From: Bacteroidales bacterium | GTDB taxonomy: Bacteria > Bacteroidota > Bacteroidia > Bacteroidales > M50B96 | Length of the DNA stretch: 37,776 nucleotides | NCBI GenBank assembly: GCA_018401015.1 | Contig: JAGYLP010000018.1 | Coordinates: 1 to 37,776 of the forward strand | Direction of reading: 5' to 3' | Shown: positions 7,286 to 37,663 of the stretch, piece after piece | How the letters are laid out: every line of letters starts with the position of its first letter | Numbering within the stretch: position 1 is the stretch's first letter | Notes under the pieces: model-generated | Seen by the model: only the letters and a program-made list of their open reading frames with translations | Database searches by the model: none | Told to the model about the DNA's origin: nothing | Translations under genes and position numbers: made by a program

Positions 7286-7675
7286 CGCTGATTATTGAAG
7301 CGGTTATGAAACGGCAGGCTAAAATAAGTTTTTCCCACTGCATAGTGGTTTTTCACTCTTCTTTTTTCCTTTGAAAAAATAACTAGGAAAAATGGGGCAA
7401 CCTTTCCAGGTTTTTCATGTCTAATGATCGAAGTTAGTTTAGGAATATTTGGTGTGGTTGCGGAGGATGAAGTTCTGTATTGGTTGTAAATTGTTAGCTG
7501 CTAATTTGCAGTCTGTTAAAACAATTTTAATTTAGCTGCCTTTTAGGTTCAATTGGGGGGTTGAGTGCTTAGATTAGTTGACTGATGCAAGTAGTTCTCC
7601 GCAACCTTTTTTAGTTAGAATGGAGTATCCCTAAGCAGGAGACTCATAGAAATAATGTGTAATCGAAATTGTAGT
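7286..7675. other. Intergenic region between divergent genes
   Basis: About 390 bp, AT-rich, with no gene on either strand. It should hold promoters for both flanking genes, but no exact TAnnTTTG box was found for either. A weak 5-bp hairpin followed by T residues lies at 7335-7352, but no gene upstream of it would use it. Confidence 0.4.
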
Positions 7676-8302
7676 ATGATGAAGAAAATTCTATTCCTTT
7701 TAAGCTTGCTATTCTGGCTTAATCCCATGTTTGGACAGCAAATCACCGTTGTAAAAAACATTACGCCACAGGTTTTGGTGGGCGATACACTGGTTTCCGG
7801 ATGTGTGGAAGCGTTGAACATCAACTATACAGGGCATGCCGACGGCATTGGTTACTTCAATTCGATAGGAACCGCCTTCGATACGGTTATCAGCAATGGT
7901 ATTATCCTAGCTTCGGGCGATGTTAATAATGCTATTGGTCCGAATAATTCGGGTAGTATATCTACGCCTTGGGGTTCACCCGGCGATGCCGATTTGGATA
8001 ACCTTATTCCTCAAACTACCAACGACGCAGCGGTGCTTACCTTCGATTTTATTCCATCGTCCGACACCCTTACCTTTAATTATGTGTTTGGTTCCGACGA
8101 ATATTTGGAGTACGTCAACTCTTCCTACAACGATGTGTTTGCCTTTGCTAACCGGTCCGGAATCCGGCCGGAGGCAATTATGTTCTGGAAAACATCGCCG
8201 TTGTGCCGGGAAACAACAACAGCGGTTTCCATTAACAATGTGAATACGACCTCGTGGCCAACCTACTATGTTGTGAACGGAACGGGAGCAGTCCGACAAT
8301 GA
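7676..8302 (+). CDS. Choice-of-anchor L / SprB-repeat T9SS protein, 5' fragment of a frameshifted gene
   Basis: The ATG at 7676 or 7679 begins a signal peptide (MMKKILFLLSLLFWLNPMFG then Q); the open frame extends upstream to 7655 but that adds a non-signal-like leader. The mature part is the choice-of-anchor L domain: VISNGIILASGDVNNAIGPN, YVFGSDEYLEYVNSSYNDVF. After VFAF the reading leaves the expected frame. LTGP lies in the next frame (8148-8159). NPAGGNYVLENIAVVPGNNN lies in the third (8161-8220). TAVSINNVNTTSWP returns to the first frame (8219 on). A fourth shift at about 8291 gives a TGA at 8300. The domain continues in the downstream piece. Either a decaying gene or a local sequence error. 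Confidence 0.75.
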   Translation: MMKKILFLLSLLFWLNPMFGQQITVVKNITPQVLVGDTLVSGCVEALNINYTGHADGIGYFNSIGTAFDTVISNGIILASGDVNNAIGPNNSGSISTPWGSPGDADLDNLIPQTTNDAAVLTFDFIPSSDTLTFNYVFGSDEYLEYVNSSYNDVFAFANRSGIRPEAIMFWKTSPLCRETTTAVSINNVNTTSWPTYYVVNGTGAVRQ

Positions 8303-11246
8303 ACCCATTCAGTACGACGGATTTGCTTACGGATTCTCTTCCGCTACTGGCGGTGCTGGTTACCCTCGTGAAACCTACTACATTAAACTAGCCGTTGCCG
8401 ATGCAGGAGATACGGCACTCGATAGCGGAGTATTTCTCGAGGCCGGTTCTTTTACCGACGGTGGATCGGCTACCCTGAACAACGTGAACCCGGCAGGTAC
8501 CATGAACGACTTGTACGAAGGTTGCGAAAGTTTCTACATCTTCTCTCGTACCGACACTGCCGATACATCTTTCCCGCTTGAAATTCAACTTACCTTTGGA
8601 GGAACAGCGACCAACGGAACAGACATTACCTTGTTTCCCAATGTGATTACAATACCCATTGGGCAAGTATCCGACACCATTTTTTACGAAGTGTTTAGCG
8701 ATAATCAGGTTGAACCAACCGAAACCTTCATCATCAATATTATGTCCGGATGTCCTTGCAATCCAGAACCCGTTAGCGACACCATCACCATTTATGATTA
8801 TGTTGAGTTCAAGGCTTCGATTATCAACACCGATTCCCTTTTCTGCGGAATGGCAGCACCGCCCACCTACGATATTGTAGCTACCTGTGTGAGTCATCCT
8901 GCCTGGTTTATCGATTACACCTGGAATACCGGCTCCACCGACAGCATCATTACCGTTATTCCTCCTGCACCCGGACAACACGATATTTACTGGGTAGAGA
9001 TTGCTGATATTTGCGGTAATTACCTTATCGATTCCATCACGGTTGGAGTCTCGAACCTGGCTGGATTAAACCTTACCACGTCCGATGCACTCTGCTTCGG
9101 GGCTTGCAACGGAGAGGTGAATGTTACCCCAATTACCATTGGCCCAACACCCGGCAAATACTACGATTGGTCCGATCCGGGAACACCCAACACCATTAGC
9201 GGTAACCGCGACGATTTATGCTACGGAACCTACACAGTTACCTTAACCGACAGTTCTTATTGTGCCTACACCGAAACCTTTTCCATTAATCAACCCAGTT
9301 GGCCATTGGATGCATCCTCAGGTTTATTACCCGTAGATACCCTTTATTGTTCCGATCCGGGTATTATCACCCTGCAAGCTCAGGCGAACATTCCGCAGGT
9401 TACCTTCTCCTGGAACGGTGGATCGCCCAGTGGGAACACCCAGGATGTCAATCCAATTATCGGACAAAACACCTATTATGTGGACATTCGCGATTTCTGC
9501 GGGTTCACGATTACCGACACGGTTAATATTTACTATTCGAACATCTCTCAAAGCAACCTAACTGCCTTGCCTACTACATGTTACGGTGTGTGCGACGGAA
9601 CAGTCAGCATTGTATCATCGAGTGGTGTTCCTCCCTTTGAATATTTCTATGGGTCCAACCTGAGTGGTTCATTTACCACCACCGAATCAACGGTCAATAC
9701 CCTTTGTCCGGATATCTACAACGTGAATGTAGTGGATGCTGCCGGATGCATTTTCGAAGAACAGTTTGTTATCGAACAGCCCGATGAATTCATTCCCGAA
9801 GAGGCTTATATTTTAAACTCCAATACCACCTGGTGTGGAACAACTCCTCCCACTAGTTTGCAACTGGAGGCCACCTCGAATCTCGACGATGTAAACTACA
9901 CCTGGAGCAACGGTAGCACGCAAGCTTACTTAGTTGTTACTCCTACTACCGGGTACGAATTATACACCGTGACTATTGCCGATAATTGTGGCAATGAGAA
10001 AATCGACAGCATTGCCGTGATTGTTTCCGATTTCAGCGGAGTGAACCTGCAAACCAGTAACGCGAGTTGCTTTAACAGTTGCGATGGTAGCATTCAACTG
10101 AGCGAAATTGGAGGAATAGCTCCCTTCGAGTATTTATGGGCAGGCGGAATAGGTGGCACAACACAGTCGAGTATCACGAATCTTTGCGAGGGAAGCTATG
10201 CCGTCACGGTAATCGATGCCGGAGGATGCGAATTTGAATATAGTTTTGAAATTGAAGCTCCTGCACCCTTGGGCGAATCGCAAATAAGTAATACGAACAC
10301 AGCCTATTGTGGTGTTACTCCCCCTGCAAGTATTACCATTCAAACCGAGGTCACGACAGCAGTCGATTATCTTTGGAGTACTGGAGCTACCACTTCCAGC
10401 ATCACCTTTGCTCCTCAAACCGGAGCGAATCTGTTTTGGGTAGAATTTACCGATATCTGCGGTAATAGTCATCGCGACAGCATTGTTTTCAGCGTATCGA
10501 ACTTCAGCGGAGCCAATTTATTCACCGAAGGAACCGATTGCTATGGAAGTTGCAATGGTCAGGTTACTGTTTCTCCCTTGTTTGGTATCACTCCTTATTC
10601 TTTTGATTGGTCGATTCCCGGGATTGGAGCTACTACCACTGCTACCTTGAACAATATTTGCTCAGGAACTTACGATGTAACGGTATCCGACGAAGCCGGT
10701 TGTTCGGTGGTTAAACCATTTACCATTACTCAACCCGATTCCATTCAGTGGGTCTGGGTTTCGAGCGACGCCGCCAGTGCTGAAAATTGCAATGGATTTG
10801 CCTCAGCCACCCAAATAAGTGGCGGTGTGCCACCCTTTACTTTCCTATGGAATAATTCACAAGGAAGCACCACCTACAATGTTCAGAACTTGTGCCCCGG
10901 GCTATACACCATAACCGTAACCGATAGTGAATCTTGTTCCGTTACCGATACCATTCGCATTGGTAGTTTGGTTAGCATCGAGGAGAATCTTGGAGAGGAA
11001 GCTCTTTCCATTTATCCGAATCCGAATCATCATGGGACCTTCTTTGTGGAGATGCCTGTTGGAGCCAAGGCGATCGAGGCTAAAGTGTACGATGCTTTGG
11101 GTCGCATCATCCTCCAATTAGATGAGAAAGATCTTCAAGTTGAACTGTTGGAGTTACGGGGAATCCCCGTTGGCTCATCGATTTTATCCATTGAGTTTGA
11201 AAATCGGGCTAGTATTCGTGAGCGATTGATTGTACTGGAACCTTAG
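8292..11246 (+). CDS. Choice-of-anchor L / SprB-repeat T9SS protein, 3' fragment of the same frameshifted gene
   Basis: Homology resumes at 8292 (SDNEPIQYDGFAYGF) and finishes the choice-of-anchor L domain (YYIKLAVADAGDTALDSGVF, LEAGSFTD). There is no proper start: the first usable codons are GTG at 8484 and ATG at 8502. A Calx-beta-like stretch follows (TFGGTATNGTDITLFPNVIT, VEPTETFIINI). Then come five cysteine-rich SprB-like repeats near 9085, 9575, 10060, 10535 and 10775, each with C(F/Y)G.C(N/D)G, a W-containing core and LC.G.Y.VTV.D..GC. Longer spacers with YC/WCG...P, W(S/N).G and D.CG motifs alternate with the first four. The last ~85 residues are a T9SS sorting domain (LSIYPNPNHHGTFFVEMP, VYDALGRII). 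If intact it would be a surface adhesin-like protein; SprB-type repeats are known from gliding motility adhesins. Confidence 0.75.
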   Translation, partial: SDNEPIQYDGFAYGFSSATGGAGYPRETYYIKLAVADAGDTALDSGVFLEAGSFTDGGSATLNNVNPAGTMNDLYEGCESFYIFSRTDTADTSFPLEIQLTFGGTATNGTDITLFPNVITIPIGQVSDTIFYEVFSDNQVEPTETFIINIMSGCPCNPEPVSDTITIYDYVEFKASIINTDSLFCGMAAPPTYDIVATCVSHPAWFIDYTWNTGSTDSIITVIPPAPGQHDIYWVEIADICGNYLIDSITVGVSNLAGLNLTTSDALCFGACNGEVNVTPITIGPTPGKYYDWSDPGTPNTISGNRDDLCYGTYTVTLTDSSYCAYTETFSINQPSWPLDASSGLLPVDTLYCSDPGIITLQAQANIPQVTFSWNGGSPSGNTQDVNPIIGQNTYYVDIRDFCGFTITDTVNIYYSNISQSNLTALPTTCYGVCDGTVSIVSSSGVPPFEYFYGSNLSGSFTTTESTVNTLCPDIYNVNVVDAAGCIFEEQFVIEQPDEFIPEEAYILNSNTTWCGTTPPTSLQLEATSNLDDVNYTWSNGSTQAYLVVTPTTGYELYTVTIADNCGNEKIDSIAVIVSDFSGVNLQTSNASCFNSCDGSIQLSEIGGIAPFEYLWAGGIGGTTQSSITNLCEGSYAVTVIDAGGCEFEYSFEIEAPAPLGESQISNTNTAYCGVTPPASITIQTEVTTAVDYLWSTGATTSSITFAPQTGANLFWVEFTDICGNSHRDSIVFSVSNFSGANLFTEGTDCYGSCNGQVTVSPLFGITPYSFDWSIPGIGATTTATLNNICSGTYDVTVSDEAGCSVVKPFTITQPDSIQWVWVSSDAASAENCNGFASATQISGGVPPFTFLWNNSQGSTTYNVQNLCPGLYTITVTDSESCSVTDTIRIGSLVSIEENLGEEALSIYPNPNHHGTFFVEMPVGAKAIEAKVYDALGRIILQLDEKDLQVELLELRGIPVGSSILSIEFENRASIRERLIVLEP

Positions 11247-13349: not shown

Positions 13350-15803
13350 CTATTCATAAATATACACCCGTTTTACTCGTGTCGAGATACTGGTCATGAT
13401 TTCATAGGGAATGGTTCCGAGGGTTTCGGCCATCTTGGGTAAGGGAAATTCTTTTCCAAATAGGATTACTTCATCGCCAAGCTTAACATCCGAATCGTTC
13501 ACATCGATCATGCACATATCCATGCAAATACTCCCGATGATCGGGTAGAACTTTTGATTAATCCATACCTTTCCAACTCCATTGCTTAACCTCCGGTTTA
13601 ATCCATCGGAATAACCCACCGGGATGATGGCAATTTTAGTTCGTTCTTTTATTTCGCCCCGACGACCATAACCAATGGTTTCGCCCCGATCGACCCATTT
13701 AATTTGAGAAATATGGGTTTTGAAGGTGCTCACGTTCTCCAGCTGATCCTGTCGGTATGAGCTAATGCCGTATAAACCAATCCCTAATCGAACCATTTCA
13801 TATTGATGTTGAGGGAAACGCTCTATTCCGGACGTATTTAATAGGTGTCGGCAAAAAGAATGATTCAAGCTTGCAGCTATTTGCTTCGTCATGGTTTCGA
13901 AGCGTTCGAGTTGAAGTTGGGTGAAAGCATCGTAATTGGAACTATCGGAAGCGGCTAAATGCGAGAAAACCGTGCTAACACGAATCGATTTCATCATGCT
14001 AAGGTTGACCAGTAAGCCATCGAGATCGTCGGGAGTAAATCCGAGCCGGTTCATACCCGTTTCGAGCTTCAAATGGATTGGATAAACATCCAAACTATAG
14101 CGCTTGAGGGTAGCATGAAACTGTTCGAGCATTTCGTTGCTGAATATTTCCGGCTCCAACTGGTACTCCAACATCGACCCGAAACTTTCCGGGTCGGGGT
14201 TCATGACCATGATGGGGATTTTTATTCCGGCTTTCCGAAGCATCACTCCTTCGTCGGCAAAGGCAACTCCGAGGTAATCGACATGATGAAAGGCCAGCAG
14301 GTTAGCTATTTCGTAGGAACCGCTACCGTATGAAAAAGCTTTAACCATGGCCATCACTTTCGTAGTTGGCTTTAATAAACTGCGATAAAACTGCAGGTTA
14401 TGGGTGAGTGCGTTCAGATTAATTTCCAGAATAGTTCGATGAGCTTTGAATTGAAGAGCACGCGAGATTCGTTCAAACTCGAATTTTCGGGATCCTTTTA
14501 AAAGAATCGCTTCATTTTTGAACTGCGATTTCTCCAATTCAATTAAGAAAGCTTCGGTATTGGGGAAAAATGTGGCCGGTAACTTAAAAAAACGTTTCGA
14601 ACGACTAATCACTTCGCCTATACCAATGAGACGATCGATGTGTTTGCTTCGTATTAAGTCCGAAACCTCTTTATAAAGTCCGGTTTCGTCTTTTCCGCTT
14701 TGTGGAATATCCGATAAGATGAGCGTTTTATGCGGATGTTGCTGCTGTTGATTCAAAAAATCGAGCGCAATAGCCAGAGAACTTAAGTCGGAATTATAAC
14801 TGTCGTTGATGAGGGTACACTGATTGATTCCTTCTTTGAGCTCGAGACGCATGGCAACCGGCGACAGTTGAGCAAAGCGCCCATTTATTTGCTCGGGAGG
14901 ATAGGAGATGAGCAAAAGGGCCCAACAATGGATCGCATTCTCGATGCTGGCATCGTCGGTAAACGGGATGCTAATGCTCCAATCTTTCTTTTCAAAACGC
15001 GCCTTAATGTGAGTGCGAGTTTGCTCTTTCTCAATTCCATGAATAAAGAGGCTTGCCGGATATTTGGTCGACCAACTGAACAAATGCGTTTTACGGAACG
15101 CATATCCCGACTCTATTTCGCTGGCCAACAAACTATTATCCTTCGAATAAATGAGCACATCGGCCTGATGGAAGAGTTTTAATTTTTCGGAGATTTTATG
15201 CTTATAATCGATGAAATTGGACTGATGCGCTTCGCCAATATTGGTAAAAATACCAATGTTGGGTTGAATAATCCGGCTTAACTTTTCCATCTCGCCTACC
15301 TGCGAAATGCCCGCTTCGAAGATGGCTAAATCGTGCGTTTCGTTCATATTCCAAACCGATAGAGGCACCCCGATTTGAGAATTGTAGCTTTTAGGAGAGC
15401 GAACAATGTTTTTATCGTTCTCCATGAGTTGAAATAGCCATTCCTTAACGATGGTTTTTCCATTGGAACCCGTAATGGCAATAACCGGATAATGAAATTG
15501 CTTTCGATGATGAGCGGCCAAAAGTTGCAAGGCTTGTAAGCTGGAGGATACCACGATGCATTCGAGGTCGGGCAAATTTTCCGGAATTCGTTCCACAACA
15601 AAATAGCGAACTCCCCGCTGAACCAGTTCGGGGATAAAATCGTGTCCGTCGTGCTTTACCCCTTTGAAAGCGAAGAACAAGGTTTCCGCAGCATCGAAAA
15701 AGCTTCGGCTATCGATGGCCAGGTTCCGGATAACCGGATCGGAAGGACCGTGTCGCTTACCTTGAGTTATGTTGGCTATATCCGATAGGGTGTAGCTAAT
15801 CAT
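13350..15803 (-). CDS. murF-alr: Bifunctional UDP-MurNAc-tripeptide:D-Ala-D-Ala ligase / alanine racemase
   Basis: An 817-residue fusion known in Bacteroidota. Residues ~1-450 are MurF, which adds D-Ala-D-Ala to the UDP-MurNAc tripeptide: the substrate domain (VIRNLAIDSRSFFDAAETLF), the ATP loop AITGSNGKTIVKEWL, NIGEAHQSNF, and the C-terminal LINDSYNSDLSSL. The usual GKT loop is intact. Residues ~455-817 are a PLP-dependent alanine racemase: RTILEINLNALTHNLQFY, the PLP lysine in MAMVKAFSYGSG (about residue 486), RLGIGLYG, the catalytic Tyr in ETIGYGRRG (about 711), and GYSDGLNRRLSNG with CMDMCMIDV. The fusion makes D-Ala at the site of peptide assembly. It follows trkA by 16 bp on the same strand, suggesting co-transcription. 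Confidence 0.95.
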   Translation of the reverse strand: MISYTLSDIANITQGKRHGPSDPVIRNLAIDSRSFFDAAETLFFAFKGVKHDGHDFIPELVQRGVRYFVVERIPENLPDLECIVVSSSLQALQLLAAHHRKQFHYPVIAITGSNGKTIVKEWLFQLMENDKNIVRSPKSYNSQIGVPLSVWNMNETHDLAIFEAGISQVGEMEKLSRIIQPNIGIFTNIGEAHQSNFIDYKHKISEKLKLFHQADVLIYSKDNSLLASEIESGYAFRKTHLFSWSTKYPASLFIHGIEKEQTRTHIKARFEKKDWSISIPFTDDASIENAIHCWALLLISYPPEQINGRFAQLSPVAMRLELKEGINQCTLINDSYNSDLSSLAIALDFLNQQQQHPHKTLILSDIPQSGKDETGLYKEVSDLIRSKHIDRLIGIGEVISRSKRFFKLPATFFPNTEAFLIELEKSQFKNEAILLKGSRKFEFERISRALQFKAHRTILEINLNALTHNLQFYRSLLKPTTKVMAMVKAFSYGSGSYEIANLLAFHHVDYLGVAFADEGVMLRKAGIKIPIMVMNPDPESFGSMLEYQLEPEIFSNEMLEQFHATLKRYSLDVYPIHLKLETGMNRLGFTPDDLDGLLVNLSMMKSIRVSTVFSHLAASDSSNYDAFTQLQLERFETMTKQIAASLNHSFCRHLLNTSGIERFPQHQYEMVRLGIGLYGISSYRQDQLENVSTFKTHISQIKWVDRGETIGYGRRGEIKERTKIAIIPVGYSDGLNRRLSNGVGKVWINQKFYPIIGSICMDMCMIDVNDSDVKLGDEVILFGKEFPLPKMAETLGTIPYEIMTSISTRVKRVYIYE

Positions 15804-37369: not shown

Positions 37370-37448
37370 ATCCGAGCGCAGCGGCGACTGGCCGACTTTA
37401 GCGACTTCAGCGAAGAGGCGACTAGGCGAGGGGGCGAAAGCCGGCAAC

Positions 37449-37548
37449 AACGAACTGCCACACGACTCCGGGCATGTGGCTTCATTCCAGTTCAAGGGAA
37501 CGAACTGCCGCGCGACTCTTGGCGCGTGGCATCTTTCTAGTTCAAGGG
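37449..37548. repeat. Two 50-bp tandem units with hairpin cores
   Basis: Unit 1 starts at 37449 and unit 2 at 37499, exactly 50 bp apart; both run from AACGAACTGCC to TTCAAGGG. Each core folds: GCCACA/TGTGGC (37457-37462 with 37475-37480) and GCCGCGCG/CGCGTGGC (37507-37514 with 37523-37530). Differences between the arms mostly keep pairing. Confidence 0.75.
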
Positions 37549-37551
37549 AAA

Positions 37552-37594
37552 TTTGCAACAACGAACCAGCCAAAAGCCTCCCGAAAGCTTTAGG
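37552..37594. repeat. Dispersed repeat block shared with 11296-11369
   Basis: 37552-37577 matches 11296-11321 at 24 of 26 positions. It is followed by AAAGCCTC and GGGAAGCCA words that also occur at 11351-11369 with an intervening inverted repeat CCCGAAAGCTTTAGGG here. A related CCTCCCGAAAAATTTTGG occurs at 37756-37773. Confidence 0.6.
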
Positions 37595-37620
37595 GAAGCC
37601 AACAGCCAACAGCCAACAAC

Positions 37621-37663
37621 AACGAACTGCCGCGCGGCTCCCGGCGCGTGGCTACATTCCGGG
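37621..37663. repeat. Third copy of the hairpin repeat
   Basis: Begins AACGAACTGCC like the 50-bp units. The core pairs GCCGCGCG (37629-37636) with CGCGTGGC (37645-37652). It is separated from unit 2 by the dispersed block and AACAGCC repeats. Downstream, TCCCGAT/ATCGGGA (37710-37725) is another perfect inverted repeat. No gene was found in 37335-37776. Confidence 0.65.

Follow-up and report, generated by a model that had tools for sequence, protein, structure and literature searches.

Uncorrected indel errors of long noisy reads give rise to frameshifts in metagenome assemblies, as described in the accessible part of one study (PMC8021871). The gene considered here resembles such draft-assembly errors in that local small indels break a conserved open reading frame (ORF) for which relatives have open orthologues; it differs in that the indels form one short patch, with few others in the sampled part of the assembly. 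Genes with multiple shifts are also known from the mitochondria of Perkinsus, where, according to the available part of the report (PMC9550989), the sites are conserved between species, carry consensus sequences, and occur in all genes. Several shifts in one coding sequence are common to both systems, whereas the conserved consensus sites given in that part of the report contrast with the present locus, where the tested relatives lack the shifts and no shared site was seen. With regard to its product, the gene belongs with the choice-of-anchor L proteins that carry a type IX secretion (T9SS) signal (NF038133 and TIGR04183). Both domains are present, as in the open orthologue of another genome (G003), but here the choice-of-anchor L domain is split by frame changes. 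In a literature search around choice-of-anchor L and Bacteroidetes, none of the papers listed carries the domain name.

The gene and its frame changes

The window (the whole stretch of DNA that was analysed, 37,776 nt) is an entire contig (C10) of a draft genome with 84 contigs, 2.88 Mb, and a completeness of 99.05%. Positions 7676-11246 on its forward strand hold a surface-protein gene whose product combines a choice-of-anchor L domain with a SprB repeat and, at the C-terminus, a sorting domain for type IX secretion. The gene comes in two pieces, an ORF at 7655-8302 (frame p mod 3 = 2) and a downstream frame that runs to 11246 (frame 0). These are halves of one protein, whose conserved segments are read successively in frames 2, 0, 1, 2, and 0 in a three-frame view. 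Both pieces exceed the curated cut-off of NF038133 (27 bits), with 145.7 bits over profile positions 5-162 for the piece 7676-8299 and 41.9 bits over positions 169-219 for the downstream piece. The gene start and the first part of the choice-of-anchor L domain occupy 7676-8146 (frame p mod 3 = 2), and the open remainder at 8367-11246 (frame p mod 3 = 0) contains the end of that domain, the SprB repeat (PF13573, 61 bits against a cut-off of 28), and the T9SS sorting domain (TIGR04183, 27.7 bits against 23; PF18962, 32.2 bits against 27). Pfam gave no match at E 0.001 for the piece 7676-8299, and a 26-residue piece from the window was likewise without a match; three of the four neighbouring proteins scanned have Pfam matches. 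On the reverse strand, 13353-15803 encodes a Mur ligase fused to an alanine racemase, as judged from Pfam matches, a fusion that is common in Bacteroidota. Three imperfect 50-nt direct repeats lie at 37439-37660, near the contig end.

The frame changes were located by aligning the window DNA to a profile of relatives over the N-terminal ~330 residues with an aligner that permits frame changes, for which the frameshift penalty was varied. The profile comprises 19 relatives, namely 18 loci of other genomes and a paralogue on contig C84 of the same genome; of 20 N-terminal loci, the window's own (L023) and L034 were kept out. With penalties of -7, -8, -10, and -12, shifts are placed at 8147, 8160, 8212, and 8288; three are left at -15 and -20, and a single net shift at -25 and stiffer. 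The third site moves to 8209 when the same-genus protein serves as reference, and the fourth change is one net shift within 8288-8297. In each of the three longer segments, codon usage independently favours the shifted frame: frame 1 scores +9.4 bits at 8161-8211, frame 2 +2.1 bits at 8213-8287, and frame 0 +5.7 bits at 8292-8330, in each case with negative values for the other frames. The 12-nt segment 8148-8159 is uninformative by this measure (frame 0 +0.1, frame 2 -0.7). An earlier note on this DNA had described four frame changes in the choice-of-anchor L domain; the profile alignment places four as well, with the third nearer 8212 than 8218.

Frameshift-aware profile alignment, the three-frame view, and codon usage thus delimit a core lesion patch at 8147-8297 on the forward strand, with frame changes at 8147, 8160, 8212, and 8288-8297 (net +1). 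The patch may extend to ~8362. The case for this extension is weak because the extra shifts, at 8328-8362 on the same strand, appear only at penalties of -6 and milder (six shifts in total at -6, seven at -5), because the same stretch in an in-frame reading amounts to two extra, poorly conserved residues, and because it adjoins a 12-nt imperfect tandem repeat (repeat D2, 8317-8340). It may consist of mutually compensating shifts or of a poorly conserved two-residue insertion. The lesion as a whole is a patch of ~150-215 nt with mixed small indels, and the remainder of the gene is open.

Compared with the full profile, the window is two bases short at site 1 (8147), where the profile has one residue more, and one base long at sites 2 and 3 (8160 and 8212). 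Site 2 is two bases short when compared with the C84 paralogue. Site 4 (8288-8297) is +1 against the full profile, the same-genus genome (G001), a second full-length orthologue (G002), and C84. Against G003, which is the best-matching full-length orthologue, it is read as -2 or as two separate losses of one base, depending on the penalty. When single, more distant proteins are used as reference (G002, C84), some sites move and the best path contains three to six shifts. By these alignments, the shifts differ in sign and size and agree only modulo 3. The earlier claim that all of them have the same sense accordingly stands modulo 3 but not physically, as the best alignments give -2, +1, +1, and an ambiguous fourth.

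The lesion clustering exceeds chance: four independent lesions in 3571 nt would fall within 150 nt with a probability of ~0.00026. In the rest of the gene, where the earlier note saw no lesion, residues 3-983 of the 984 downstream residues align to G003 without an internal stop.

Relatives and the remainder of the assembly

None of the 19 relatives needs a shift in a leave-one-out alignment at penalty -8. At -6 and over a longer stretch, 18 of the 19 are shift-free and the C84 paralogue has one shift near the 3' end of the stretch; over a 600-nt core, shifts occur in no relative at -5, -6, and -7 and in three at -4. The 19 are the best-scoring matches and so biased to intact copies, and two loci in the same match list (G049:C209 and G056:C38) contain stops. 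Within this set leaning to intact copies, lesions common to relatives were not found. A pseudogene shared with the tested relatives, which the earlier note had envisaged as the same four shifts recurring in relatives, is ruled out by the absence of a shared lesion in all 19, whereas a strain-specific one would be compatible with it.

The frames of the family-level orthologues G003 and G002 comprise 1195 and 1209 codons, respectively, and stay open through the domain. The family thus has an intact form, and the two orthologues suggest that the intact state is the older one. Such an open frame in relatives had been expected to mark the shifts as an error; it was found in these two orthologues and fits an error or a very recent mutation alike. 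The genome itself has two further matches to the N-terminal part, both on C84, where the paralogue is open for 1136 codons. At the DNA level, the C84 copy and the gene share 67% identity over ~330 nt in a match that starts at ~8357, downstream of the core patch. The same-genus genome G001 (60% complete) is the only other one of the genus that was found, and no second strain was found. Its presumed orthologue has both parts open at the ends of two contigs (L025, contig C70, and L005, contig C42); the break corresponds to window ~8405-8432, in the same domain, and the ends have no exact overlap. This single case could be a sign that assembly is difficult here. A scan of genome contigs, from which records of this or very near genomes were possibly omitted, gave one weak Anaerolineae match (L043) only.

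To look for other frame changes, a coding-frame model was applied to 837,776 b of the 2.88-Mb assembly, made up of the window and 40 stretches. The scan yielded 22 switch points, 17 of which are gene junctions or overlaps by eye, and four of which lie in three genes with a mid-gene frame change: the present gene, L049 (contig C6), and L053 (contig C11). One switch point, at ~1453 of L068 (C1:101453 of its own contig), is near an ORF end and was assigned by eye to neither group. In the rest of the window, the final scan found no other switch; an earlier version had flagged 12534, which is the junction of two genes.

The gene in L049 encodes a sensor histidine kinase and has opposite shifts at ~2350 and ~2467, ~117 nt apart. 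Its open frames continue on both sides of the shifts, 7TMR-DISMED2 and HisKA_3 are above cut-off, and the middle frame gave nothing above cut-off in Pfam (one weak CxC6 match, E 0.08). The pair, which was missed by the first scan and emerged only when the scan was repeated on more training data, could be a further patch of indels or two natural shifts that compensate each other. In L053, one shift at ~8650 separates two long open frames that seemingly belong to one protein; this shift could also be natural in origin. Relatives of the L049 gene are distant (10 of 20 other genomes match, with at most 35% identity among the matches listed), and the L053 gene has no match in any of 20 other genomes.

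The sensitivity of the approach was gauged by simulation with a simplified one-strand model, in which none of 120 unaltered genes was flagged near a randomly chosen point. Single deletions were flagged in 88 of 120 cases, and compensated pairs in 32 of 120 at a distance of 120 nt and in 83 of 120 at 200 nt. More lesions may be hidden because the scan misses many simulated ones. Indel pairs or groups packed in ~100-200 nt, with few others in the draft, are what is expected from a locally poor consensus, although they are not proof of it.

Origin of the indel patch

The best-supported reading, with a probability of roughly three in four, is that the patch is a locally poor consensus in the draft assembly. 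The true gene would probably be intact and ordinary, and its product a surface protein that is exported by type IX secretion and carries a choice-of-anchor L domain and a SprB repeat. The ~150-215 nt of the patch would have been rebuilt from inadequate data, such as a handful of reads (or just one) of low quality or low coverage, or a gap that was filled, and the draft would thereby have acquired several indels of one or two bases and of mixed sign. A consensus error is consistent with at least four small indels that fall in ~150 nt while the 3.57-kb gene is open and conserved elsewhere, with their mixed signs and sizes, and with orthologues (G003 and G002) that are open through the domain. 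It also suits an 84-contig draft with further in-gene shifts in L049 and L053, even if both of these might have a natural origin. The position of the patch, 8 kb inside the contig, argues against it, and a noisy assembly would give more lesions than the three such genes encountered in 838 kb, albeit with a scan that misses many. The earlier note had likewise favoured a local assembly or consensus error, but on the main ground of a single direction, which was not upheld. Together, the shifts with their clustering and mixed size, their absence in the tested relatives, and the few further in-gene shifts in the sampled assembly most likely reflect a technical cause rather than a mutation in the cell.

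A genuine inactivation of very recent date is an unlikely but serious competitor. The gene would then be a young strain pseudogene that arose through a clustered indel burst (e.g., one error-prone repair event) and is tolerated through the intact paralogue, and the 1136 open codons of the C84 copy are in keeping with such tolerance. Because the conserved protein is still readable across the patch and codon usage holds up there as well, any mutation would have to be recent. However, several indels in 150 nt in a gene whose rest is stop-free are unlike ordinary decay, and no lesion is common to any of the 19 tested relatives. A single mutational event in the cell that created all of these clustered indels at once, inactivating an adhesin-like surface gene while its paralogue stayed intact, is improbable. 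A repeat- or hairpin-driven cause was sought in the sequence, which gave only five short direct-repeat families (9-13 nt) and a single inverted repeat of 9 nt, whose arms are separated by 266 nt; DNA folding was unremarkable.

Programmed recoding, in which several ribosomal frame shifts would restore the full protein or the shifts would serve as an on/off switch, is very improbable. The net reading does give a complete domain, and the agreement of the shifts modulo 3 is suggestive at first sight, but no common sequence was recognized by eye at the sites and the tested relatives are without shifts. Seven codon pairs located at the sites or next to them were counted in frame 137, 201, 117, 142, 130, 25, and 25 times among 340 stop-free ORFs with a minimum length of 900 nt, and their use elsewhere is thus ordinary. 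When 8130-8310 was folded as single-stranded DNA, the z-score was -1.20 and 30 of 200 shuffles folded as well, which is unremarkable. On the features tested, programmed frameshifting was rejected, as the shifts are not conserved (0 of 19 relatives at -8, in a set leaning to intact copies), no shared slippery or stimulatory sequence was seen at the sites, and DNA folding is ordinary; nothing tested supports the deliberate switch that the earlier note had named as a less likely option.

A chimera, in which two strains or paralogues were joined inside the domain, has hardly any plausibility: the domain is multi-copy, with the two further N-terminal matches on C84, and the same-genus assembly is also broken at the equivalent of ~8405-8432, but open paralogues would be expected to differ from each other in frame, the C84 match has only 67% DNA identity and starts at ~8357, downstream of the core patch, which makes a junction with the known paralogue unlikely, and only short direct repeats, none of 20 nt or more, were found in the gene.

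The patch thus most likely has an ordinary explanation that involves no new biological mechanism. If the indels were real, the gene would illustrate how a burst of clustered indels can strike a gene for a surface protein. In either case, caution is warranted, as clustered indel patches in draft genomes can mimic recoding or phase switching, and a frameshift-aware comparison with a few orthologues, combined with a survey of the remaining assembly, is of help in exposing such patches.
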